Part shown: one piece after another, positions 23,754-36,299 of the stretch
How the letters are laid out: each line of letters starts with the position of its first letter
How positions within the stretch are numbered: position 1 is the stretch's first letter
NCBI GenBank assembly: GCA_015061945.1
Contig: SUVP01000001.1
Coordinates: 1-64,000 of the forward strand
Length of the DNA: 64,000 nt
Reading direction: 5' to 3'
Source of the DNA: Opitutales bacterium
Lineage (GTDB): Bacteria; Verrucomicrobiota; Verrucomicrobiia; Opitutales; Intestinicryptomonadaceae
Notes under the pieces: generated by a model
Seen by the model: the letters and a program-made list of their open reading frames with translations, nothing else
What the model was told of the DNA's origin: nothing
The model's database searches: none
Made by a program: the position numbers and the translations under genes

Positions 23754-26333
23754 TTATGCGAGCTCTTTCTCGCTGAATTTCATCGTTCCTCCCGCCTTTA
23801 TTTCTCCCGCAATTATCGCACGAGCAAGTGGATTTTCGATTTTCATATTTATCACACGCTTGAGTGGTCGAGCTCCATAAGTTGGGTCGTACGCTTTTTC
23901 CGCAAGATATTCATAAGCTTTCTTGGTTAACTCCACCTTGATATTTTGCGATTCCAAACGTTTGTTGAGCATATCAATTTGCAACTTCACAATCTTGACG
24001 ATTTCGCCAAGTTGCAACGCCTTAAACAAAACGATATCATCTATTCGATTTATAAATTCAGGTTTAAAGTATGTGCGAACTTCGCTCATAACAGCTTCGC
24101 GGGCGGAAGTAGATAATTCGCCATCTGCACCGATTGCCGAGTCGCTGATGAATCTTGCCCCGACATTTGATGTCATTATGATTACCGTATTGCGAAAATC
24201 AACTTTGCGTCCTTGCGAGTCTGTCAAAACGCCGTCGTCCATAACTTGCAAAAGTGTATTTAAAACTTCTGGATGTGCTTTTTCAACTTCGTCAAAAAGC
24301 ACGACGCTATATGGACGTCTACGCACTGCCTCTGTTAGTTGCCCACCTTGTTCGTAGCCGACATATCCTGGAGGAGCCCCTATCAAACGTGCAACAGAAT
24401 GCTTTTCCATATACTCCGACATATCGATTCTCACGATATTTTCTTCGCTGTTAAAAAGTGCTTCTGTGAGAGTTTTTGCGAGTTCAGTTTTCCCTACACC
24501 AGTTGGACCCAAGAACATAAAACTTGCGATTGGTCGCTTGGGGTCTTGTATTCCAGCACGCGAACGCAACACTGCATTTGCAACGCTATCGACAGCTTCG
24601 TCTTGACCTATCACACGTTTGTGCAAAATATCGGCAAGCTTGAGAAGACGCTCACGTTCAGTTTCGAGAAGTTTGCTAACTGGAATGCCCGTCCAATCGG
24701 CGACAATCGACGCAATTTCATCTGCACCGACACTTTCTTTTATCAGCGGAGAATCTTTCTTTTCCTCGCTCATTGCTTTTGCGAGTTCTGCTTCCAACTT
24801 TGGCAATTCGCCGTATTTTATTTCGGCAGCTTGTTGCAAATTATACTCACGTTCGGCTCGCTCCATTTTGATTTTCGCTTGCTCGATTTGCTCGCGTAAT
24901 TTCACAGCTTTATTTGTGGCTTCCTTTTCATCTTCCCAACGTGCTTTCAATGCGGACGATTGCTCACGCATTTCTGCAAGCTCTTTGCGAACTTCCGTAA
25001 GACGCTTTTCATCGTGCTTTTCTTTGACAAGTGCTGTCTCCTCGATTTCGAGACGACGCAATTTTCGCAAAAGCATATCGAGTTCAGTCGGCATAGAATC
25101 GAGTTGAGTTTTGATACGTGCACACGCTTCGTCGACAAGGTCAATCGCCTTATCTGGAAGTTGTCGCCCAGTGATATATCGGTTGCTCAACACCGACGCT
25201 TCAACAAGTGCTTTGTCCTGAATATGCACGCCATGGTAAGTTTCAAAACGTTCTTTCAGACCTCGTAAAATTGCGATACTTGTTTCAACATCCGGCTCGG
25301 CGACATAAACACTTTGGAATCGACGCTCTAAAGCTGGATCTTTCTCGATATATTGTCGGTACTCGTCGAGTGTTGTCGCACCTACGCAACGCAATTCTCC
25401 ACGTGCGAGCATAGGTTTTAGCATATTCGACGCATCCATTGAACCTTCGGTTTTTCCAGCTCCGACAATCGTATGCAACTCGTCGATAAACAAAATAATT
25501 TTGCCGTCCGATTCTTTAATTTTGTTCAAAACAGCTTTGAGCCTTTCTTCAAATTCGCCACGATATTTTGCACCAGCAATGAGTGCTCCCATATCGAGTG
25601 CAAAAACTGTCTTGTCTTTCAACCCTTCTGGGACATCACGACGAACAATTCTTTGTGCCAGTCCTTCGGCGATTGCAGTCTTACCAACACCAGGTTCGCC
25701 AATGAGAACCGGATTATTTTTTGTCTTTCGAGAAAGAATACGGATGACTCTATTTATCTCGTCATCACGACCAATAACGGGATCGAGTTTGCCGTCTCGT
25801 GCGAGTCTGACAAGGTCGGCACCATATTTTTCCAAAACTTCGTAAGTAGCTTCTGGCGTCTTTGTCGTTATACGAGATGTACCACGCATCTTCAAAATTT
25901 CTTCCTCAACAGATGCACGGACAATCTGCAAACTACGCAAAAGATTCGCTATTTCTGCAGGCTCAGCATTCTCGAGAATTGCCAAAAACAAATGCTCGGT
26001 AGAAACAAAATCATCGCCCATTTCTTTGATAATCGATATCGCACGTTCGAGTGTTTTCGACAAACCTGTGCTGATGTATGGCTCTGAAGTTGCACCGTTA
26101 ACTTTCGATAAATTTTCGAGAACTCTGCGTACACCTAATTCAAGGGCTGAACGTTTGTCGGCACCAAGCCTATTCAAAAGCGATGCGACAATTCCACCGT
26201 CTTGTGCAATCAATGACGAAAGCAAATGCACTTGCAATATTTCAGGATTACCACGCGACTTTGCTATTTCTCTCGCACCATTTATTGCTTCAATACTTTT
26301 TTCTGTAAATTTTTCTATATCTATATTGTTCAT
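23754..26333 (-). CDS. clpB: ATP-dependent chaperone ClpB
   Basis: This 859-residue Hsp100 disaggregase works with DnaK to rescue aggregated protein. The N-terminal double-Clp domain covers about 1-145. The first AAA module has Walker A GEPGVGKT and Walker [10 protein letters not shown]; a long coiled-coil middle domain (about 400-530) is typical of ClpB rather than ClpA; the second module has [14 protein letters not shown] and [14 protein letters not shown]. No ClpP-binding IGF loop is obvious. It is transcribed toward rlmN. The 238-bp region upstream separates it from the phage-like cluster; no heat-shock operator was recognised there. Confidence 0.96.
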
Positions 26334-26571: not shown

Positions 26572-27783
26572 ATGAACACAAAAGCATTCACCTCCACAAT
26601 AAATCCGCGTGTTTCAAGAACACGATTCAACCCAATCAAAAATTTGCGTCCAGATACTCTCGCACGAGCTCTCGACGAGTTCGAAGCTGGCAGGCTCGGT
26701 ACTGCTACAAGAATTTTTGAATCTATATTGAAACGAGATGACACAATATGCGGATTAAACCTTAAACGAAAAAAATCAATATCACGTCTCGAAAGCGAGA
26801 TTGTAATAAAAGAAGAATCGCCCCGTGCGTTTGAACACAAAAAGGTTCTCGCCGATTTTTACGATTCACTCGAAACAACAAACTTTGTCGACAGAAACCA
26901 AACAGGCGGATTACGTATGTTGATTTCGCAAATGATGGACTCGGTCGCTATGAAATATGCCGTTCATAAAATCGAGTTTTTGCAAGACAAAGATAAGATA
27001 CGTGGACACTTCCAACAATATCCTCTTTGGATGTTTGAAAATACTTCGGGCAAACTTCGTTTACTTGAACACGAAGGTCAGTTGACAAACGGAACTCCGC
27101 TACAAGACGGACAATGGCTTATCACCTGTGGCGACGGGCTTATGACAGCCTCGGCAATCGCCCATTTATTCAAGATTCTACCGTTAAAAGATTGGCTGAT
27201 ATATTGCGAACGCAACGGTATGCCAGGGATAAAAGCTACAACAGATGCATTCCCAAATTCTCCACAATGGGAAGCGACTTGCGAGGCTGTCGCCGATTTT
27301 GGTGCAGAATTTCACGCAGTACTTTCTAAAGGTACAGACATAGAAGCTATCGACGTTTCCACAAGCGGAGAACTCCCTTACCCCGCAATTATCGAGCGTG
27401 CCGATAGAATCCTTTGTGCCCTCTGGCGTGGTAGCGATTTAAGTACCATTAGCGGAAATAATCAGGTTGGTGCGAGTGCCCAGTGGTATGAAAGCACACT
27501 TATTGAAGAAGCAGATGCGTCGGCAATAAGCGACACGCTACATAGAATTGTTGATAGACAAGTCATAAAGCTCGCATTGGGCGACGATGTCGCACTTGCA
27601 AAATTTACTTTAAAACTCCCCGACTACGAAGAACACAAATGCGAACTTGAGATAATCGAGCGTCTTTGTGCACTCGGGCTGAAGCCAGATATCACAGAAT
27701 TGTCGAGACGCTTTGCAGTACCGATGATGGCAACAAAAAATCCTGACGAAAATGTGGAAAGCAAAAAAGATGAAATTCGATAA
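26572..27783 (+). CDS. Mu gp29-like phage portal protein (DUF935)
   Basis: This 403-residue protein is the first gene of a phage-structural cluster. The central segment WLIYCERNGMPGIKATTDA is typical of Mu-type portals (DUF935), as is the later LCALWRGSDLSTISG followed by a long helical stem. Portals form the dodecameric ring through which DNA enters the head. The frame is intact, without frameshifts, and overlaps the protease gene by 14 bp. Length is a little shorter than the roughly 500 residues of Mu gp29. There is no terminase gene upstream, unlike in Mu; clpB lies there instead. Confidence 0.78.
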   Translation: MNTKAFTSTINPRVSRTRFNPIKNLRPDTLARALDEFEAGRLGTATRIFESILKRDDTICGLNLKRKKSISRLESEIVIKEESPRAFEHKKVLADFYDSLETTNFVDRNQTGGLRMLISQMMDSVAMKYAVHKIEFLQDKDKIRGHFQQYPLWMFENTSGKLRLLEHEGQLTNGTPLQDGQWLITCGDGLMTASAIAHLFKILPLKDWLIYCERNGMPGIKATTDAFPNSPQWEATCEAVADFGAEFHAVLSKGTDIEAIDVSTSGELPYPAIIERADRILCALWRGSDLSTISGNNQVGASAQWYESTLIEEADASAISDTLHRIVDRQVIKLALGDDVALAKFTLKLPDYEEHKCELEIIERLCALGLKPDITELSRRFAVPMMATKNPDENVESKKDEIR

Positions 27784-28489
27784 AGAACTTCTGCAAGTGC
27801 TTTGCCCTTTCGGAGAGTGGGAACATCCCAAAGGTATGCAAGTTGTCGACGAAGAATCGGCACGACGTATGAGACGTTCGGCAGGCTGGTCGGCGATGTC
27901 TCCAATCCCAATCTATATCGGGCATCCAGACGACATTCCATCAAAACGCAAACCCAAAGTTGTCGGCAAAATAAAACGGATTTGTCGATCGCACGACGGC
28001 ATTGCGGTTGTCGCACAGTACCCTAAAGAAATTTACAAAGATGTTATATCTGGGAAATTTTCGGCAATGTCTCCACGCTGGCAAATGGAACATATCGAAG
28101 GCGAAAAATATCGCCCCGTAAAACTCATTTCTGTGGGACTGACAAACAATCCAAACATCGCAGATAGCGGAAAAATTCTATCGATGAGAACCAACTCAAC
28201 GCTGTTTGAGACTGCAATATTTGAAAGTCGGAAAATCGCACAACGTATATCTCAACTTGGCAATTCTATTTCGCAAATTACCTCAAAAACAGAATCGCTA
28301 AAAAAACAACTCAACGCTGAAAGACTCTCAAACCGCCTAAAAGAAAGAGAATCGAGCTCGCCAAGTAAAAATATATCTGAACGAAAAATGAACGTATCGA
28401 AACTTGTAGATGCAGCACGCAACCGGAGTCGGATGTTAGGCGAACCATATACCAAAAGTTTTTCAATCGTAAAAAAACAAAACATTTAA
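27770..28489 (+). CDS. Mu gpI-like prohead protease/scaffold protein
   Basis: This 239-residue protein resembles the Mu-like I protein. The protease part has PIYIGHPDDIPSKRKPKVVGKI and the segment GKFSAMSPRWQMEHIEG followed by KLISVGLTNNPNI, the usual substrate-proximal motif. The C-terminal 80 or so residues are helical and charged, as expected of a fused scaffold. I chose the internal Met at 27770 (MKFDKELL), which overlaps the portal end. It would process the prohead during assembly. The placement portal-protease-cement-capsid matches phage head operons. Confidence 0.72.
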   Translation: MKFDKELLQVLCPFGEWEHPKGMQVVDEESARRMRRSAGWSAMSPIPIYIGHPDDIPSKRKPKVVGKIKRICRSHDGIAVVAQYPKEIYKDVISGKFSAMSPRWQMEHIEGEKYRPVKLISVGLTNNPNIADSGKILSMRTNSTLFETAIFESRKIAQRISQLGNSISQITSKTESLKKQLNAERLSNRLKERESSSPSKNISERKMNVSKLVDAARNRSRMLGEPYTKSFSIVKKQNI

Positions 28490-28491
28490 CC

Positions 28492-28511
28492 ACAGAACAA
28501 TGACGTTCTGT
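28492..28511 (+). other. Stem-loop upstream of the cement gene
   Basis: ACAGAAC (28492-28498) pairs with GTTCTGT (28505-28511) in the 45-bp gap before the cement gene. No T run follows, so it is more likely an mRNA-stability or translation element than a terminator. A good ribosome-binding site (AAAAGGA) comes between it and the ATG. Confidence 0.45.
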
Positions 28512-28534
28512 AAACAAACAAGAAAAGGACAAAA

Positions 28535-29230
28535 ATGAAGAATAAAATCAAATATGCCGTCTATGCGTTGTTTAACTTCGCATCGGCTTTAACAACACGC
28601 AAGCGTGCGTTCTGCAACATCGCCGAAGGAACTCACGCTGGCTCTATAACAATGACTGCTGGCGAAAATATCGATATGCAAAATTTGCTCGTATCGGCAG
28701 GCGAAAATGAAGGCGAAATTATCGTCGCACAAACAACATCAAAACCGCTGGGTGTGTGTATCGACGAAGGAATCAAAGGCGAAAAGTTGGCAGTAGTTTT
28801 GGGTGGCTCAACCGACTCAACTTTCATTTGCCGTACATCGAGTGATATCACTGAAGGCGATTCTGTGTACTCTGCACCAAATGGTAAAGTTAGTGCGTTT
28901 GCATCAAATGGATGCTACAAAATTGGTGTCGCACTTTGCTCTGCAACGACAGGTGGAGTCGTTGAAATCGACCCACAAGGCTTTGGCGAAAGTGCATGGC
29001 AATTCTATTCGTGCGGGATATATCAATGGCAAAGCTCTACATCAACTGAAAAACTCTCGTGTGCTGGTCTCAACGAAAACGATGTTGTAATAGCTTCAAT
29101 CTACGCAAAAGGCGGTAGCGAAAAATCGGTAAACGCAACCGCAAATAGCACTGGCATTCAATTCCAACTCGACGCAAATGGTACTGCTGGCTCAACAAAA
29201 ATCGCATGGATTGCAATTAGAAAGAACTAA
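28535..29230 (+). CDS. Capsid cement/decoration-like protein
   Basis: This 231-residue protein has an N-terminal half typical of DUF2190-like cement proteins: NIAEGTHAGSITMTAGENIDMQNLLVSAG, then KPLGVCIDEGIKGEKLAVVLGGSTDSTF and DITEGDSVYSAPNGKV. These small beta-tulip proteins stabilise the head. The C-terminal 80 residues (after EIDPQGFGESAW) look like an added beta-rich domain, perhaps a surface extension. It stands directly before the capsid gene, as expected, with a 2-bp gap. Confidence 0.62.
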   Translation: MKNKIKYAVYALFNFASALTTRKRAFCNIAEGTHAGSITMTAGENIDMQNLLVSAGENEGEIIVAQTTSKPLGVCIDEGIKGEKLAVVLGGSTDSTFICRTSSDITEGDSVYSAPNGKVSAFASNGCYKIGVALCSATTGGVVEIDPQGFGESAWQFYSCGIYQWQSSTSTEKLSCAGLNENDVVIASIYAKGGSEKSVNATANSTGIQFQLDANGTAGSTKIAWIAIRKN

Positions 29231-29232
29231 TA

Positions 29233-30150
29233 ATGGAGAACAAAAATATTATTACAGCAAACGAAAATAGATTCACTGCAACTAACTATTCCGAAGCTCT
29301 CACAGCGTTCACTGTCGGTTGGGTAGACCCTGATAATATCGCAAAATTGCTCGATTTCATCGCCCCACCTATCCCTGTCGGCAGACGTTTTGAATTTAAA
29401 CGTAGCGATAATGCACAAGCGTTTTACTCGGAAAACGATGACGTTCGCTCTATCGGTGCAGAATTCAAAAGAGTTAAGTATGACGGTGAATCGGTAAACG
29501 AAAAAACGCTCAATAAGGGCTTAACTATTCGAGTTGATCACGACGAAGTTGCTGGCGACGATTGGCAAGAACGTTATGTGCAAATGCTCCTTCAACGCCT
29601 CTTGAGAAATGAGTTGCGTCGTGCAGTTTCAGCACTCGAAACAATCGCAACAGAACACGCAAGTGTGGATTGGATAGACGCCGATAATCCTGACGCTGAT
29701 ATTAGAGATATGTTGGCTTCGGCAACAAACGAAAGTGGTATCCGACCAAACAGACTTCTCTTTGGTGAATCGGCGTGGGACAAAAGAATGACTTGCCTTG
29801 AATCGCAAAATTCTGCTGTTGCATTCAAAGGTGCATCGATGTTGCAAAGCGAACTTGCTGGTAAGTTCTTACTCGATGGTTGCGAAGTATTGTCATCAAG
29901 ATATCAATCGGCATCTACACAGAAATCGCAAATTCTCGGCGATACAGTCTTCGCATTCTTCGGGCAAAACACTGTATCAAAAGACGAACCATCAAACCTC
30001 AAGCGATTCTACACGCCAACAGAAGAAGGCTCTGCGTTCCGCGTATATTGCGACGAACACGCAAAGTACACTGACATCACAGTCGAACACTACTCGAGTA
30101 TTGTTGCAACAAGCAAACTCGGTGTTCGCAAACTCTCAATTAACGTATAA
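29233..30150 (+). CDS. Major capsid protein candidate (HK97-fold type)
   Basis: This 305-residue protein fits a major capsid protein by position and pattern: an N-arm-like start, an E-loop-like stretch (FEFKRSDNAQAFYSENDDVRSIG), a long spine-like helix (DDWQERYVQMLLQRLLRNELRRAVSALETIATEHA), and an A-domain with PNRLLFGESAWDKR and GDTVFAFFG. The lack of an N-terminal propeptide is consistent with a separate scaffold. It follows the protease and cement genes and is closed by a hairpin. The family call rests on pattern and order, not on a database hit. Confidence 0.68.
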   Translation: MENKNIITANENRFTATNYSEALTAFTVGWVDPDNIAKLLDFIAPPIPVGRRFEFKRSDNAQAFYSENDDVRSIGAEFKRVKYDGESVNEKTLNKGLTIRVDHDEVAGDDWQERYVQMLLQRLLRNELRRAVSALETIATEHASVDWIDADNPDADIRDMLASATNESGIRPNRLLFGESAWDKRMTCLESQNSAVAFKGASMLQSELAGKFLLDGCEVLSSRYQSASTQKSQILGDTVFAFFGQNTVSKDEPSNLKRFYTPTEEGSAFRVYCDEHAKYTDITVEHYSSIVATSKLGVRKLSINV

Positions 30151-30165
30151 GGAGCGTTGAAACTT

Positions 30166-30202
30166 GTGCGGTGTATCGCCATACACCGCACATCATTTTT
30201 TA
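30166..30202 (+). terminator. Terminator-like hairpin after the capsid gene
   Basis: A perfect 11-bp stem GTGCGGTGTAT/ATACACCGCAC (30166-30176 with 30181-30191) with a four-base loop is followed by ATCATTTTTT. It lies inside the cluster, 3 bp before the ATG of the next gene, so partial termination would raise capsid output over the downstream neck and tail genes. Confidence 0.65.
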
Positions 30203-30204
30203 TT

Positions 30205-30654
30205 ATGGATTGGATAAAATTAACAACAAAAGATTTGGAATGTGTTTTAAACAAACCTCAACTCGACATACTAAAAGCACAAGCTTTGCGTTCTCCCGAT
30301 ATGGATATCGCCTTTGAAGTAATATCAAATATTGTTGCGAGAATCCGTGCAGAAATAGCTGTAAGTGGGCTAAATTCCCTTGATGCCGACCATTCGAGAA
30401 TCCCACTTGAGCTGAAAGATTGTGCGTTGCGTCTTTGTGTGGAATCACTACAAGCTCGCTTGCCTTCGATGGAATTGTCGAAACTCCAAATAAAATATGC
30501 GGACGATGCAAGAGAAACACTTGTTCGTGTAGCGAGTGGTGAATTGCCCGTTAGCAGACCTCTTTTCTCGATTAGTACTGCAACAGCAAAGAAAGGAATT
30601 TCAAGCTCTGCATCAAAAAAAATATCAACACGCAAAACAATGAAAGAGCTTTAA
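30205..30654 (+). CDS. Head-tail connector candidate (gp36/DUF1320-like position)
   Basis: This 149-residue, mainly helical protein begins MDWIKLTTKDLECVLNKPQLDIL and contains KDCALRLCVESLQARLPSMELS, a pattern like adaptor/connector proteins that bind the portal. Mu places gp36 (DUF1320) directly after the capsid gene, so order supports the call. The C-terminal 35 residues are Ser/Lys-rich and probably disordered. I chose ATG at 30205, since the longer frame starts inside the hairpin region. The identity is inferred. Confidence 0.5.
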   Translation: MDWIKLTTKDLECVLNKPQLDILKAQALRSPDMDIAFEVISNIVARIRAEIAVSGLNSLDADHSRIPLELKDCALRLCVESLQARLPSMELSKLQIKYADDARETLVRVASGELPVSRPLFSISTATAKKGISSSASKKISTRKTMKEL

Positions 30655-30655
30655 T

Positions 30656-31069
30656 ATGGGAACTTTGGAACGCTTACAAAAATCAATAGCAGAATATTTA
30701 CGCAGTTTATCAGACTTGAGATTTGCAGATGTATACGCCCAGTTGCTCGATTTTGAAGAAGCTGGGAAAGCCGAAGGAATGAAGATTCGCGTACTTTTGC
30801 CAATGCCATTGAAAGCATCAAAATATGCGATAGGTCCGACATTTTCAGACGTTGAAATCACGATTGAAATCACTCGAGACACCTACATTGCGATGAATCA
30901 ACCAAGTATTCTCACTGCTTCAGAAATTGTTTCACGAGCATTGCATCGCTGGTCGCCACCGATTGAGTCGGGGTTCAGTACACTTGTTCTCGCAGAAAAC
31001 AAACCGTGGCAAAAGATTGATTCAAACAACATCCACATAATATTTAAAACGCAATCTGTTCTACAATGA
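30656..31069 (+). CDS. Phage neck/tail-completion candidate (137 aa)
   Basis: The order (after the connector) and the composition, with an alpha/beta pattern ADVYAQLLDF, MKIRVLLPMPLKASKYAIGPTFSDVEITIEITRDTY and a final IHIIFKTQSVLQ strand, resemble Mu gp37-like or tail-terminator proteins. I cannot assign a family with confidence. It starts 1 bp after the previous stop and overlaps the next gene by 4 bp (ATGA). Confidence 0.5.
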   Translation: MGTLERLQKSIAEYLRSLSDLRFADVYAQLLDFEEAGKAEGMKIRVLLPMPLKASKYAIGPTFSDVEITIEITRDTYIAMNQPSILTASEIVSRALHRWSPPIESGFSTLVLAENKPWQKIDSNNIHIIFKTQSVLQ

Positions 31070-31458
31070 AAATAAAATTCTCAAACATAGTTTTGAACGA
31101 AAATTCTGAACTTCCCAAAGACATCGCAATTCTAACACGCCGTTTGACACAAACAGAATTTCCGATTGAAGCCGACAACGCAAAAATTTTCGATAGAAAA
31201 AATCTACGCATAAACATTTCATTTGTTATCGAACGAAGCCATTGCGACGAAGAATCGGCGAGAATTTTTGCACTTGAACACGCTATAAATTTGTCGGCAG
31301 TTTCATCGGCAATCCTTGAATTTATCGACGATAACAAACATCTTTGCACTCGGTTTAAATCTGCACTGCCGATAAAAATCAAGAGCGAAAATAATGCACT
31401 TATAACATCAACAAAATATGAATTTGTAGCAGAACAATTAGAAAGAATCACATTATGA
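31066..31458 (+). CDS. Unassigned phage-cluster protein (130 aa)
   Basis: I do not recognise this protein. It is mixed alpha/beta, begins MKIKFSNIVLNENSEL, and has a helix ESARIFALEHAINLSAVSSAILEF. Its position between neck-like and hub-like genes suggests a tail-tube-adjacent or assembly role. It overlaps both neighbours by 4 bp (ATGA), showing tight translational coupling. Confidence 0.55.
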   Translation: MKIKFSNIVLNENSELPKDIAILTRRLTQTEFPIEADNAKIFDRKNLRINISFVIERSHCDEESARIFALEHAINLSAVSSAILEFIDDNKHLCTRFKSALPIKIKSENNALITSTKYEFVAEQLERITL

Positions 31459-31604
31459 CAAACGAAGAATTTGAACGAGAAATAAGAGATGAACTCGACG
31501 CAATACAAAGTAAACTCGACCAAATTGAACACGAGCTTGAAAACCTCAACAACACTGTTTCCGAAAACGCACAATCGGCAAACAATATAAAATCTGACAT
31601 CTAA
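31455..31604 (+). CDS. Small coiled-coil protein in the phage-like cluster (49 aa)
   Basis: A 49-residue ORF begins MTNEEFEREIRDELDAIQSK and continues with heptad-like spacing of Leu and Ile (LDQIEHELENLNNTV), giving a strong coiled-coil prediction by eye. It overlaps the previous gene through ATGA and ends 1 bp before the next ATG, so it is almost certainly translated. The acidic helical nature could suit a chaperone, scaffold or trimer adaptor. No homolog is known to me. Confidence 0.6.
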   Translation: MTNEEFEREIRDELDAIQSKLDQIEHELENLNNTVSENAQSANNIKSDI

Positions 31605-31605
31605 T

Positions 31606-33333
31606 ATGAATGCAATTTTTTCAATAGGCGGAGTCAAAAGCTCCGCTTCTCAGCTCGGAATTGTCGATGCAAAAATCATTAGGCGATGTTCTGGTTTAGA
31701 TGAATTGAAGTTATCTCTCGCATCGCCAGAATTTCTCGAAAAATTTTCTATCGACAACACGATAGAAGTATTTGTCGATTCCGTAAAAAAATTCAGCGGG
31801 AAAATTATTAAAACTCCAATTACGCTCGCTGGCAAAACGCAGAATGCGTCAATAATTGCATACAACGCTTGGAACGATCTCGAGCAAATTGTTTACCAAC
31901 AAAAGTGGGTCAGATTTGCAAACAATACTGTCGGCAATTTTTACAGAAGTAAAGTTGTTTTAGGTCAAAATAATAATTCTGAAAAAATAAATGTTGGCGA
32001 ACAAATAAGAGACATCGCTGAGTATGCGATAATGTGTGGTGCAAATTTCAAAATTGGCAACATAGATGTAGATGCACCTATGCTACTTGATGAAACCCGA
32101 GACTTATCTTGTAGTCAGGCAATTTTGCGTGTGTTAAAATGGGCTCCAAACGCCTTTGCTTTCTTTGATTATTCAAGCGATTCTATCCCAACTTTGAATG
32201 TACAGAAATGTACATCGCTTGAGAAAATCATTCTCGATAATTCGATAGATTCAATTCTAAAAGTTTCTATTACGCCACGCCCAGATTTATCCCTTGACGG
32301 CGTATCGATAAAATATGAGCAAGAAAATATTATCAATTCAAAATCGACTCTAACAATTTTTGAGGACAACTATCCGACCGACATTTCCTCGAGTTCTCAA
32401 AAAATACTTGTGATGAGCGTTGACCTTGACGGTAAAAAAGCATCGTGCCACACATACAAAATTGTCTGCGAAAATATCGACTTAGATAGCACACATTGGT
32501 GGGCAAAGCACATTCCATCACTCCCCGAAGCAGATATTGAAATTCTCGAAACATCGATAACCGACGGCAGTTATTTGCGAGAACTTATCGACGGCACGAT
32601 ACCGTCTTCGCTCAACTTCAAAAAGCAAAGTGCAATAGCAAAAGCAAAAATTAAATACATAAAAGATGACGGCACAATTTGCATAAAAAACGTCGCAACA
32701 CGTATTTTAACAACGACTGCACAAACTGGCACATACTCCGTTTGGCGAACATCACAGTATGCAGAACCAAAACCAAATGGACTCGCAAAAGCAATCTACG
32801 AAGCGTCGGCACGTCTACTCCACGAAGGTTCGGTAGAACTTGCTAACGCACTCGAACAAGATTTTATCGGCAAAACAATATCAATAAGCATCCCCGACCA
32901 CAGCGATTTGCTCACGATAAATTCGCCCGTAATTTTTGTGGAAGAAAATATCGCAAAAGAAAAAACTTCTATAAAAATCGGCACGCCAAACCATCTGTAT
33001 CCAGACAAAATTGCCGAGCTTTTCAGAATATCGAGAAATAGAAAAATTACAGAATCATCATTTCTACGAACGTCTGCCCAAAACGATTCTACCATAAGCG
33101 ATATGACAGCCCAACAGCCTCTCGATAACGGTTCAGAAGGCGACACAAATTATCAGCGTTTGTTGATTTCAAAAATCGAAAGTGAAGATTCTGCGAAGAA
33201 AATTGATATCAATTCTGACGATATCGGAGAAAACGAAACCGCACAAATGACCCAAATTTATTTGTGCCACAATGGATATTTAGCATCTGCAAAAATCTTA
33301 ATGACCGAACCGATTATCGAAGATGAATTCTGA
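31606..33333 (+). CDS. Baseplate-hub/tail protein D-like candidate
   Basis: This 575-residue protein starts with a beta-rich region resembling hub proteins of the gpD/gp27 type: FSIDNTIEVFVDSVKKFSGKIIKTPITLAGK followed by NASIIAYNAWNDLEQIVYQQKW. The middle holds more beta segments, and the C-terminal 100 residues are polar. Such proteins form the ring at the tail tip or, in tailless forms, part of the injection apparatus. There is no tape-measure or tube gene between it and the neck genes, which is unusual. It overlaps the next gene by 11 bp. Confidence 0.5.
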   Translation: MNAIFSIGGVKSSASQLGIVDAKIIRRCSGLDELKLSLASPEFLEKFSIDNTIEVFVDSVKKFSGKIIKTPITLAGKTQNASIIAYNAWNDLEQIVYQQKWVRFANNTVGNFYRSKVVLGQNNNSEKINVGEQIRDIAEYAIMCGANFKIGNIDVDAPMLLDETRDLSCSQAILRVLKWAPNAFAFFDYSSDSIPTLNVQKCTSLEKIILDNSIDSILKVSITPRPDLSLDGVSIKYEQENIINSKSTLTIFEDNYPTDISSSSQKILVMSVDLDGKKASCHTYKIVCENIDLDSTHWWAKHIPSLPEADIEILETSITDGSYLRELIDGTIPSSLNFKKQSAIAKAKIKYIKDDGTICIKNVATRILTTTAQTGTYSVWRTSQYAEPKPNGLAKAIYEASARLLHEGSVELANALEQDFIGKTISISIPDHSDLLTINSPVIFVEENIAKEKTSIKIGTPNHLYPDKIAELFRISRNRKITESSFLRTSAQNDSTISDMTAQQPLDNGSEGDTNYQRLLISKIESEDSAKKIDINSDDIGENETAQMTQIYLCHNGYLASAKILMTEPIIEDEF

Positions 33334-33946
33334 CCAAAATTTTACATTCATATCGCCGATTCCGTATCCGATTGAATCCGCTGAACTGCTCGATGGGAAG
33401 TTGCGTTTAGACAACTTTTCTGCCCAAGAATGCGTACAATTTTTTTGGAGAGTAAAGCGTGTTTATCTAAATGCGGAACTTTCTATTTTCTACCAAAGTG
33501 AAAATTGGGATGAGCCACTTTACGACGAAACAGTTTCGACGAGTTTCGACTCTACAAATACCGACTGCATCTTTGGTGTCTCAATGCGTGAGCGTGTCAA
33601 TTACACAAACCCATGTAACATCACTAACGAACACGGCTTATTAGAAATAACTGGTCCGTACCTCTCAAATGGCTACGAGACAAATGATATCGATTTTTCA
33701 CAGAAAAAATTTGAGTATCATTTGCGATTTTATTTTGGCGTTGGCAATATCGTTATGTCGTCTGAATACATTGCAAATACGAGCAACCCAGACGCAATGA
33801 TAACTGCTCAACGTTTCCCGTTTGAAATTTTTGGACGCACTTATCACTTGAATTTAAACGTACCTAATGCACTTTTGACACCCGAAAAATACGGAATAAT
33901 TACATCATTTTCAGGTAATGCAGAATTGCTGTTTGAATTTCTGTAA
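33323..33946 (+). CDS. Last gene of phage-like cluster, unknown (207 aa)
   Basis: I do not recognise this protein. It looks beta-rich and aromatic (FFWRVKRVYLNAELSIFYQSENW, then YHLRFYFGVGNIVM), without signal peptide or membrane segments. By position it could be a tail-tip, fibre or receptor-contact protein. It overlaps the hub-like gene by 11 bp and ends 8 bp from the convergent LysM gene stop, marking the right end of the cluster. Confidence 0.5.
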   Translation: MNSDQNFTFISPIPYPIESAELLDGKLRLDNFSAQECVQFFWRVKRVYLNAELSIFYQSENWDEPLYDETVSTSFDSTNTDCIFGVSMRERVNYTNPCNITNEHGLLEITGPYLSNGYETNDIDFSQKKFEYHLRFYFGVGNIVMSSEYIANTSNPDAMITAQRFPFEIFGRTYHLNLNVPNALLTPEKYGIITSFSGNAELLFEFL

Positions 33947-33954
33947 AATGAAAA

Positions 33955-34764
33955 TTAACGCGGAATCCTCAAAGTCTGACCAGGCTTGAGTGATTCTGGC
34001 GTTGCCATTCTGTCGCGATTTGCTTTGTAGATATCACGCCAACGATTTTTTTTGCCGTAAACTTTTCGGCTAATATTAGAAAGTGTATCGCCTGGTTGAA
34101 CAGTATATGTTGGCGGAACATCACGTTTAACTTCAATCTTCTGCGGAGTTGATTGAGTTTGTTTTTTATCTGCACGCGAAGTTTGTCTTACTTCTTTTTG
34201 TGCTGGAGCAACGCTAACTCTTTGCGACGCCTTCAACGAATCTGCAAGTTTAATTGCGTCGTCCAAGCGTTGCTTAAGTTCTACATTTTCTTTTTGTAAT
34301 TTTGGCAAAAGCTCCTCAAGCTCCATTCTGCGAGCATCATTATCAAAAGGAGATTGTGGTAATGTTGCAGCAAACCTTTTCTTTGCCGTATCAATCATTT
34401 GGCGAACCATTGGCGATCTATCCGATTTCGGCATCAACTCGAGGTACTTTTTGAAGTGATGAATTGCTTCGATATGGTCATTTATTTCATCAAGATAAAT
34501 TCTTCCCAATTCGAGATGCGATTCTGGTGCATCGGTACGTTTATCCACCACTTTCAAAAATGCACTCATTGCTTCTGAAATATTTCCGCGTTGTAATTCG
34601 CTTTTAGCACGAACAAAATGAGGTTCATCTTCTTCTTTTACAACTTGTGCCTTACCGAAATCGCACCCACCTGCCGACATTACATACAGCACCGCAACCG
34701 TCGCCGATATCAACGCAACTACGGCCTTTCCTTTTAGATTGAGAATGTCGAAAGGTGGGAACAT
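33955..34764 (-). CDS. TPR and LysM domain lipoprotein candidate
   Basis: This 269-residue envelope protein has an N-terminal hydrophobic segment ending MSAGGCDFG (possible lipobox, Cys34), TPR-like repeats (about 50-120: SELQRGNISEAMSAFLKVV, YLDEINDHIEAIHHFKKYLEL), a coiled coil (about 150-180), a Lys/Gln/Thr-rich linker, and a C-terminal LysM (YTVQPGDTLSNISRKVYGKKNRWRDIYKANRD). LysM binds peptidoglycan, so it probably links to the cell wall. It follows purH by 5 bp and is probably co-transcribed with it. Confidence 0.85.
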   Translation of the reverse strand: MFPPFDILNLKGKAVVALISATVAVLYVMSAGGCDFGKAQVVKEEDEPHFVRAKSELQRGNISEAMSAFLKVVDKRTDAPESHLELGRIYLDEINDHIEAIHHFKKYLELMPKSDRSPMVRQMIDTAKKRFAATLPQSPFDNDARRMELEELLPKLQKENVELKQRLDDAIKLADSLKASQRVSVAPAQKEVRQTSRADKKQTQSTPQKIEVKRDVPPTYTVQPGDTLSNISRKVYGKKNRWRDIYKANRDRMATPESLKPGQTLRIPR

Positions 34765-34769
34765 ATCGA

Positions 34770-36299
34770 TTAGTGTCTAAAGTGGCGAACTTTTGTGAAC
34801 ACCATTGCCATATTATTTTCGTTTGCCGCTTCGATTACTTCAGCATCGCGAACAGATCCACCAGGTTGGATAGCAGCCGTTGCACCTGCTTTTGCTGCAG
34901 CAACCAAACCATCTGCGAATGGGAAGAATGCGTCTGAAGCAACGACTGACCCCTTGAGGCTCAATCCAGCTTGTTCTGCTTTCCACACTGCGATTTGCGA
35001 GCTATCTACACGAGACATTTGCCCTGCACCGATACCAAGAGTACGTTCGCAACCAGCATATACAATAGCGTTGCTCTTAACGTGTTTTACGACCTTCCAA
35101 CCGAAAAGCATAGCACGCCATTCTTCTTCAGTTGGCTGACGTTTTGTTACAACTTCCATATTGTCTTTCAACTCTTCGATTGCGTCAGCCGATTGAGCTA
35201 ACAAACCACCGATAACACTCTTGAATTGGAGTGCGTCTGACTTTTTGTAAGTTGAAATCATCAATCGTAAATTCTTTTTCTTTGCTAAAATTTCGAGAGC
35301 TTCGTCCGAGAAATCTGGAGCAATAATCACTTCTGAGAAAATACCAGCAATGATTTGAGCCAAGTCGGCTTCGAGCTTTCTATTCATAACGATAATACCA
35401 CCAAATGGTGCTTGCTTATCTGTTTCAAAAGCTTGATTCCATGCGTCGACAAGATTATCGCACGACGCAACGCCACATGGGTTTGTATGTTTGAGAATTG
35501 CCAATGTTGGCTTTTCAAACTCTGCGATAAGCCAAGTTGCCGCACTAATATCGATAATATTATTATAAGAAAGTTCTTTACCTTGAAGTTGACGGAAGAA
35601 TTTGCCGAAGTCGCCATAAAGAGCTGCACTTTGGTGTGGATTTTCGCCATAACGCATTTTTTGAACCATACCCATCCCGATATTGAGAGTTTCAGGAAGA
35701 GTACCTTCGCCGTTGTACTTTGCGTTCAAATAAGTCGAGATAGCGGCGTCGTACGCACTTGTGCGTTGATAAACTTTCAAGGCGAGTTTTTTACGAAGGT
35801 CTTGGAGAACTTCACCGCCTTGACGCATTGCGTCGAGAACTTTTGGGAAATCGTTATTATCGCAAACAACAGTTACGCTTGCGTGGTTTTTCGCTGCCGA
35901 ACGGAGCATAGATGGACCGCCAATATCGATATTTTCGATAGCATCTTCAAGCGTGCAATTTGGCTTTGCCACAGTTGCTTCAAAAGGATAGAGGTTGACG
36001 ACAACTAAATCAATCATACCAATACCATGTTCTTTTGCTTGTGCCATATGTTGTTCGTTTGAACGCAACGAAAGCAATCCGCCGTGAATTTTTGGGTGGA
36101 GCGTTTTTACACGTCCGTCCATCATTTCAGGGAAGCCAGTATAATCGCTGACCTCGGTTACTGGGATGCCCTTTTCTGCGAGGAGCTTTGCAGTTCCACC
36201 TGTTGAAAGAATTGTGTAGCCGAAGTGAGCTGTCAATTCTTTCGCAAATTCTACGATACCTGTTTTGTCGCTAACTGATATTAATGCACGTTTTTCCAT
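34770..36299 (-). CDS. purH: Bifunctional AICAR transformylase/IMP cyclohydrolase
   Basis: This 509-residue enzyme does the last two steps of IMP synthesis. The N-terminal MGS-like IMP cyclohydrolase domain (about 1-190) has [27 protein letters not shown] and [17 protein letters not shown]. The C-terminal AICAR transformylase domain has LRYGENPHQ in the form [27 protein letters not shown], and [18 protein letters not shown] near the end. Length is normal. It is the first gene of an operon with the LysM protein and divergent from the prenyl synthase gene. Confidence 0.96.

Follow-up and report, generated by a model that had tools for sequence, protein, structure and literature searches.

A dispersed Mu/B3-type phage module, very probably domesticated, that may work like a gene transfer agent in Opitutales

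Introduction

Gene transfer agents (GTAs) are defined by six features, and those formally recognized derive from three independent phage captures (PMC9662315). RcGTA, BaGTA, and BhGTA (Rhodo-, Barto-, and Brachygtaviriformidae) have phage-derived head and tail genes at several chromosomal loci, have diversified together with their hosts, and keep an intact terminase while lacking replication and integration genes. The Opitutales module described here is like them in all these respects. Unlike them, it has a Mu/B3-type head, a verrucomicrobial host, no tape measure, and an apparently very short tail, and its DNA packaging and transfer are predicted from genes alone. We found no earlier report in the literature linking the Opitutales, or their phylum, with GTAs.

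The module also resembles transposable phages of the Mu-like kind, among them Pseudomonas phage B3. Its terminase large subunit (TerL) is 55% identical to that of B3 and its portal and cement proteins match those of B3, and we therefore take the ancestor to have been a Mu/B3-type phage. The gene order is likewise that of B3 (gp26-gp27-gp28-portal ... protease-scaffold-capsid-gp36). Unlike these phages, the module has no transposase, repressor, lysis cassette, MuF, major tail protein, or tape measure, and its genes are dispersed and not mobile. A third likeness, in the fold of the hub protein, is to contractile injection systems and the VgrG of T6SS; Afp, PVC, and AlgoCIS have a sheath and tube but no capsid, whereas the module cluster has a capsid but no sheath. 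Finally, in Ca. Marcellius, another verrucomicrobium, two Mu-like proteins and a terL have been called a degraded prophage (PMC6920513), and that set may be the same thing as the module.

Results

The window is the whole stretch of DNA that we analyzed, 64,000 nucleotides at the start of contig SUVP01000001.1 from a gut-dwelling Opitutales bacterium (Verrucomicrobiota). Ten forward ORFs, closely packed and unbroken, occupy positions 26572 to 33946, and their GC content resembles that of the flanking genes; on both points the ORF map agrees with the first-pass annotation, as it does on the position of the module between clpB and a LysM gene. The clpB gene (23754..26333, reverse strand) is the 5′ host flank and lies outside the element. 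On the 3′ side, a TPR-LysM host gene (33955..34764, reverse strand), recognized by family search and by a shared junction, is followed by purH (34770-36299), which together with the LysM gene marks that junction. An endolysin role for the LysM gene was considered and dropped: its combination of TPR and LysM domains, its location on the other strand, and its synteny of the housekeeping type suggest a host gene. A tRNA search of the window found none, and no att-like repeats were evident around the module.

The ten genes encode a Mu/B3-type phage head, connectors, a hub, and a tip of no recognized fold. The head functions claimed from the sequence alone were borne out by Pfam and PHROG matches to Mu-type head proteins. 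The first gene (26572..27783, forward strand like all that follow) encodes a 403-aa portal protein of the Mu gp29/DUF935 type (Pfam Portal_Mu, 1.9e-50; PHROG portal, 5.4e-14) that matches the B3 portal at 1.9e-37. Next comes a 245-aa head maturation protease resembling Mu protein I (27752..28489; PHROG head maturation protease, 1.2e-4), for which the Pfam Mu-like_Pro match (0.0035) fell below the cut-off and whose position is conserved in the orthologs. The 231-aa cement or head decoration protein (28535..29230; Phage_cement_2, 1.6e-5; PHROG head scaffolding, 2.4e-10) matches ORF37 of B3 at 2.5e-6. The 305-aa major capsid protein (29233..30150; PHROG major head protein, 1.2e-8) has a profile that matches the solved phage-related protein 3bjq at 2.6e-4, and its identity within the host family is 66-83%.

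Behind the capsid gene, g5 (30157..30654) is a candidate head-tail connector of the DUF1320/Mu gp36-like type; it occupies the slot of gp36 in B3 and gave a weak profile match to the solved DUF1320 head-tail protein 8rka (E = 0.02). Direct comparisons with B3 were not convincing for the capsid, for g5 (set against gp36), or for g6. From its position and conservation, g6 (30656..31069) is a candidate neck or tail-terminator protein, with no family match in Pfam or PHROG and no PDB sequence match, and g7 (31066..31458), which found nothing in a PDB sequence search, is by position a short-tail or tube candidate. The reading frame g8 (31455..31604) would encode a 49-aa coiled-coil protein, and a small gene stands at the equivalent place in relatives.

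The 575-aa product of the next gene (31606..33333) had been called hub-like, and structure prediction upheld this. A PDB sequence search gave nothing useful, but in Foldseek the AlphaFold model (pLDDT 81) matched Mu gp44 at 3.4e-12 and the hub of a contractile injection system at 2e-16, so that a tail or baseplate hub of the gp44/gp27/VgrG fold is confirmed at the level of the predicted structure. The last gene, g9 (33323..33946), follows the hub in the orthologs and encodes a fast-evolving 207-aa tip or receptor-binding candidate. Its homologs have a mean column identity of 19%, with W42 and R91 invariant, and its confident structure model (pLDDT 91) had no match at E ≤ 0.001 in the PDB or viral libraries.

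The locus had been described as a head-plus-hub set without terminase. This is right for the locus itself and wrong for the genome, which has terL at another locus, as well as genes for a fibre and a holin-like protein. Our search for terL and the fibre gene was guided by the gene order of homologous clusters in termite-gut relatives. A TerL profile search found one intact terminase large subunit in the genome, on contig C4 (E = 5e-227), with Pfam Terminase_6N (1.4e-12) and 6C (3.5e-17) domains; a Walker-B-like DE and three nuclease Asp positions are invariant across 13 homologs. Upstream of it lie genes for a single-membrane-span coiled coil of 135 aa, a winged-helix-like protein of 86 aa, and a protein of 141 aa. 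By position and character, without a significant sequence match, this conserved trio before terL reproduces the Mu gp25-gp26-gp27-gp28 order, as in B3. Downstream of terL in the same genome there is a gene for an HU-like DNA-binding protein (L199:8836-9108); antisense ORFs related to it at L200 and L206 suggest that this neighbor is shared.

The fibre N-terminal domain was found on contig C2 (7.7e-28) beside an 83-aa gene, the two sitting between glycosyltransferase and reductase genes. A holin-like membrane protein gene stands alone at 245 kb on contig C14, the contig of the window (9e-59), with the same def/coaE-side neighbors as in G004. In UBA1116 and other relatives the holin-like gene is linked to the cluster, and in G001, G003, G009, and G011 to the fibre gene; its assignment is the weakest of all because G001 has three copies. 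The parts thus occupy four loci, each amid housekeeping genes: head, connectors, hub, and tip in the window; gp25/26/27-like small genes with TerL on C4; the fibre gene and its neighbor on C2; and the holin-like gene on C14. We identified no endolysin or regulator.

Each of the 18 readable genomes of the family, 13 from the same genus and five from others, yielded both a capsid and a hub. The only genus member to give no matches, G010, was left out of the readable set and rejected as a case of module loss, since its sequence is masked as N where checked and RpoB is missing too. All module genes present in the 18 genomes are single ORFs, with one exception: the portal of G008 (L040) is split into two ORFs, either by a real break or by an assembly error. 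A TerL assigned to the module was found in 15 of the 18, mostly unlinked to it, although in G004 and G008 terL lies a few kilobases away on the opposite strand. The fibre N-terminal domain was also present in 15 of the 18.

Synteny had been proposed as a check across the whole clpB-module-purH interval, and it held on one side. The lysM-purH flank is common to 10 genus members; on the 5′ side, nine members have galactose genes (galK-galE-uridylyltransferase) where the window has clpB.

Homologous contigs came from uncultured Opitutales, Puniceicoccaceae Marseille-Q1082, Puniceicoccales that we call termite-gut from their isolate names, and Cerasicoccus. The termite-gut relatives, with genomes of 0.9-1.1 Mb, have the cluster in one piece with terL in place, in the order gp26/27-like - terL - portal - ... 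- g7 - fibre - small coil - hub - tip. B3 carries in cis the genes for a tape measure, for a major tail protein, and for lysis; all of these are absent from both the window and these clusters. In the phage contig L176, g7 homologs are followed by a weak tape-measure match and then by the hub, and this slot between g7 and hub is the one taken by the fibre in the termite-gut clusters. A very short tail is thus probable. By inspection, the orthologous clusters hold no integrase, replication, or tape-measure genes, and in the gene maps no transposase, integrase, or replication control is linked to the structural genes of the orthologous loci. The first-pass annotation had likewise noted the lack of tape measure, lysis, integrase, and replication genes at the locus.

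Module and host histories agree. Distances correlate with those of RpoB in Mantel tests (capsid, 0.90; portal, 0.87; TerL, 0.90; hub, 0.72; permutation p = 0.0005). The concatenated module tree has 9 of 13 splits in common with the RpoB tree, against a mean of 0.25 and a maximum of 3 in 500 relabelled trees, and the tree of the unlinked TerL has 6 of 10. dN/dS, which had been suggested as a further check, was 0.02-0.36 in all measured genes, indicative of purifying selection; the values were taken from close pairs of relatives because dS was saturated against the window's own nearest relatives. The most variable parts are the tip and fibre, as expected for receptor-binding proteins. With capsid and hub in every readable genome, host-congruent trees, purifying selection, shared junctions, and no integrase or replication genes, domestication of these phage genes in the host lineage, which the first reading had also proposed, is very strongly supported.

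Discussion

Set against the six features of GTAs (PMC9662315), and as far as genes can tell, three were found here and one is implied by dispersal. The proteins derive from a tailed phage (portal, cement, capsid, hub, and terminase matches); the element is fully endogenized at multiple loci, the four described above; and inheritance is mostly vertical with co-diversification with the host, as the Mantel correlations and shared splits show. The parts in the window's own genome are spread over three contigs, which would imply that the element cannot be fully packaged. The other two features, particles filled mostly with random host DNA and delivery of DNA to other cells, are predictions here, and the intact TerL with its invariant catalytic positions bears on the first of them only indirectly. 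We favor, as the probable reading, a domesticated, dispersed, tape-measure-less particle that works like a GTA. The original suggestion of a domesticated, GTA-like particle is supported, but its assumption that the head-plus-hub set has no terminase is wrong for the genome.

The course of events set out next, from assembly of the particle to the transfer of its DNA, is what we infer from the genes. The loci would be expressed in some cells, where portal, protease, cement, and capsid would form a small head. TerL and the gp27-like protein would together fill this head with host DNA, and g5-g7 would close it. Packaging of DNA is indicated by an intact, conserved TerL inherited with portal, protease, and capsid; without replication and integration genes, and with parts on several contigs, the element's own genome could hardly be packaged, which makes host DNA the likely cargo. 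Hub, tip, and fibre would build a very short tail, which would attach to kin cells and let the DNA out, and the holin-like protein may aid particle release by lysis.

The alternative that survives best, although we consider it considerably less probable, is a domesticated head kept for a role other than DNA transfer, such as delivery of a protein or toxin at the tip, or interference with infecting phages. It draws on a tip homolog in UBA1116 (L108:14275-15804, the same as L052 of genome G027) that has a PT-TG pre-toxin domain fused at its C-terminus (PF14449, 2.9e-13) and behind it an 88-aa gene (L108:15808-16074) that could encode an immunity protein. It would also suit the head-only clusters of Cerasicoccus frondis, C. 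maritimus, and OFTM35 (L083, L084, and L143), in which small genes, terL, portal, protease, cement, and capsid are followed directly by housekeeping genes, and one sister genus, of which three genomes (G015, G017, and G018) have the capsid and gave no module terL in fragmented assemblies, through either that fragmentation or true loss. Against it, the window's own tip showed no toxin domain in a Pfam family search, portal and protease are retained, and TerL keeps its catalytic residues and tracks the host in 13 of 13 readable genomes of the genus. A terL at G018:C96 was rejected as a candidate for the module's, as the portal fragment there is only 32-44% like those of the family and belongs to a different element.

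Some observations touch the same clusters. OFTM35 (G048) has g5-, g6-, and fibre-like genes on a separate contig, L266, and the hub was not found in the genomes of some free-living Opitutales with head-only clusters, OFTM35 included. Other clusters (L085, L098, L140, and L056) have the head, g5, and a long fibre without a hub, the last of them from a nearly closed 3.8 Mb genome.

The main alternative to domestication had been named as a remnant prophage, the other genes of which were lost recently. The genes are phage-derived, no complete phage is present, and the similar set in Ca. Marcellius was read in this way, yet we now regard such a remnant as very unlikely. A decaying element should show broken genes and relaxed selection, and we found single ORFs in 18 genomes, bar the one split portal, with low dN/dS; trees and distances follow the host, and junctions are common across species. 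The genus also supplies an internal control, since Mu-like prophages occur in G001, G003, G005, G007, and G008 (L028, L030, L036, L038, and L039). These have distant portal, terL, and capsid homologs (portal identity about 30-34%) but differ from the module in carrying the terminase in cis and extra genes such as a D12 methyltransferase, and their portals form a separate clade with a conflicting pattern of recent transfer: between G001 and G007 the prophage portals are 93% identical and the module portals 65%.

Those same prophages could in principle lend tail or lysis functions to a satellite, a helper-dependent element of the kind the earlier reading had allowed for. We hold this to be still more improbable, because a search of the window's own genome for Mu-type portals returned a single one, the module's own, and the module has no mobility genes. 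It has its own hub, tip, and TerL and is inherited vertically, and the integration and replication genes and helper dependence that mark PICI/P4-like satellites were not found. Least credible is a complete phage scattered by genome rearrangement and still infectious: taken together, the loci supply most structural functions, but pieces that lie on different contigs cannot be packaged as one, replication, integration, and tape-measure genes were not seen, and no similar phage DNA was found in 50,697 phage records.

If the GTA-like reading is right, the module would be a GTA in the Verrucomicrobiota and a fourth GTA type, Mu/B3-derived, from a different phylum and retained by symbionts with strongly reduced genomes; capture of phages as GTAs would be recurrent, and useful even under genome shrinkage. 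More tentatively, it could extend as an independent Mu/B3-derived GTA across the Opitutales, including the termite-gut symbionts of about 0.9-1.1 Mb, tape-measure-less and dispersed and with a toxin tip in some lineages, so that one particle may combine DNA transfer and killing. Viral and mobile phage contigs are interspersed among the order-level portals in the tree, so domestication may have been more than one event and a single order-wide origin is unproven. Versions of the module in culturable hosts, the dispersed form in the Marseille-Q1082 isolate and the head-only form in Cerasicoccus strains, offer a cultured route to the system, and the members without a tape measure offer a test of the minimum length of a DNA-delivering tail. 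The IMG/VR contig L184, and probably L147, L149, and L181, are catalogued as viral and look like chromosomal pieces of the element; L184 runs on into an aminotransferase gene.
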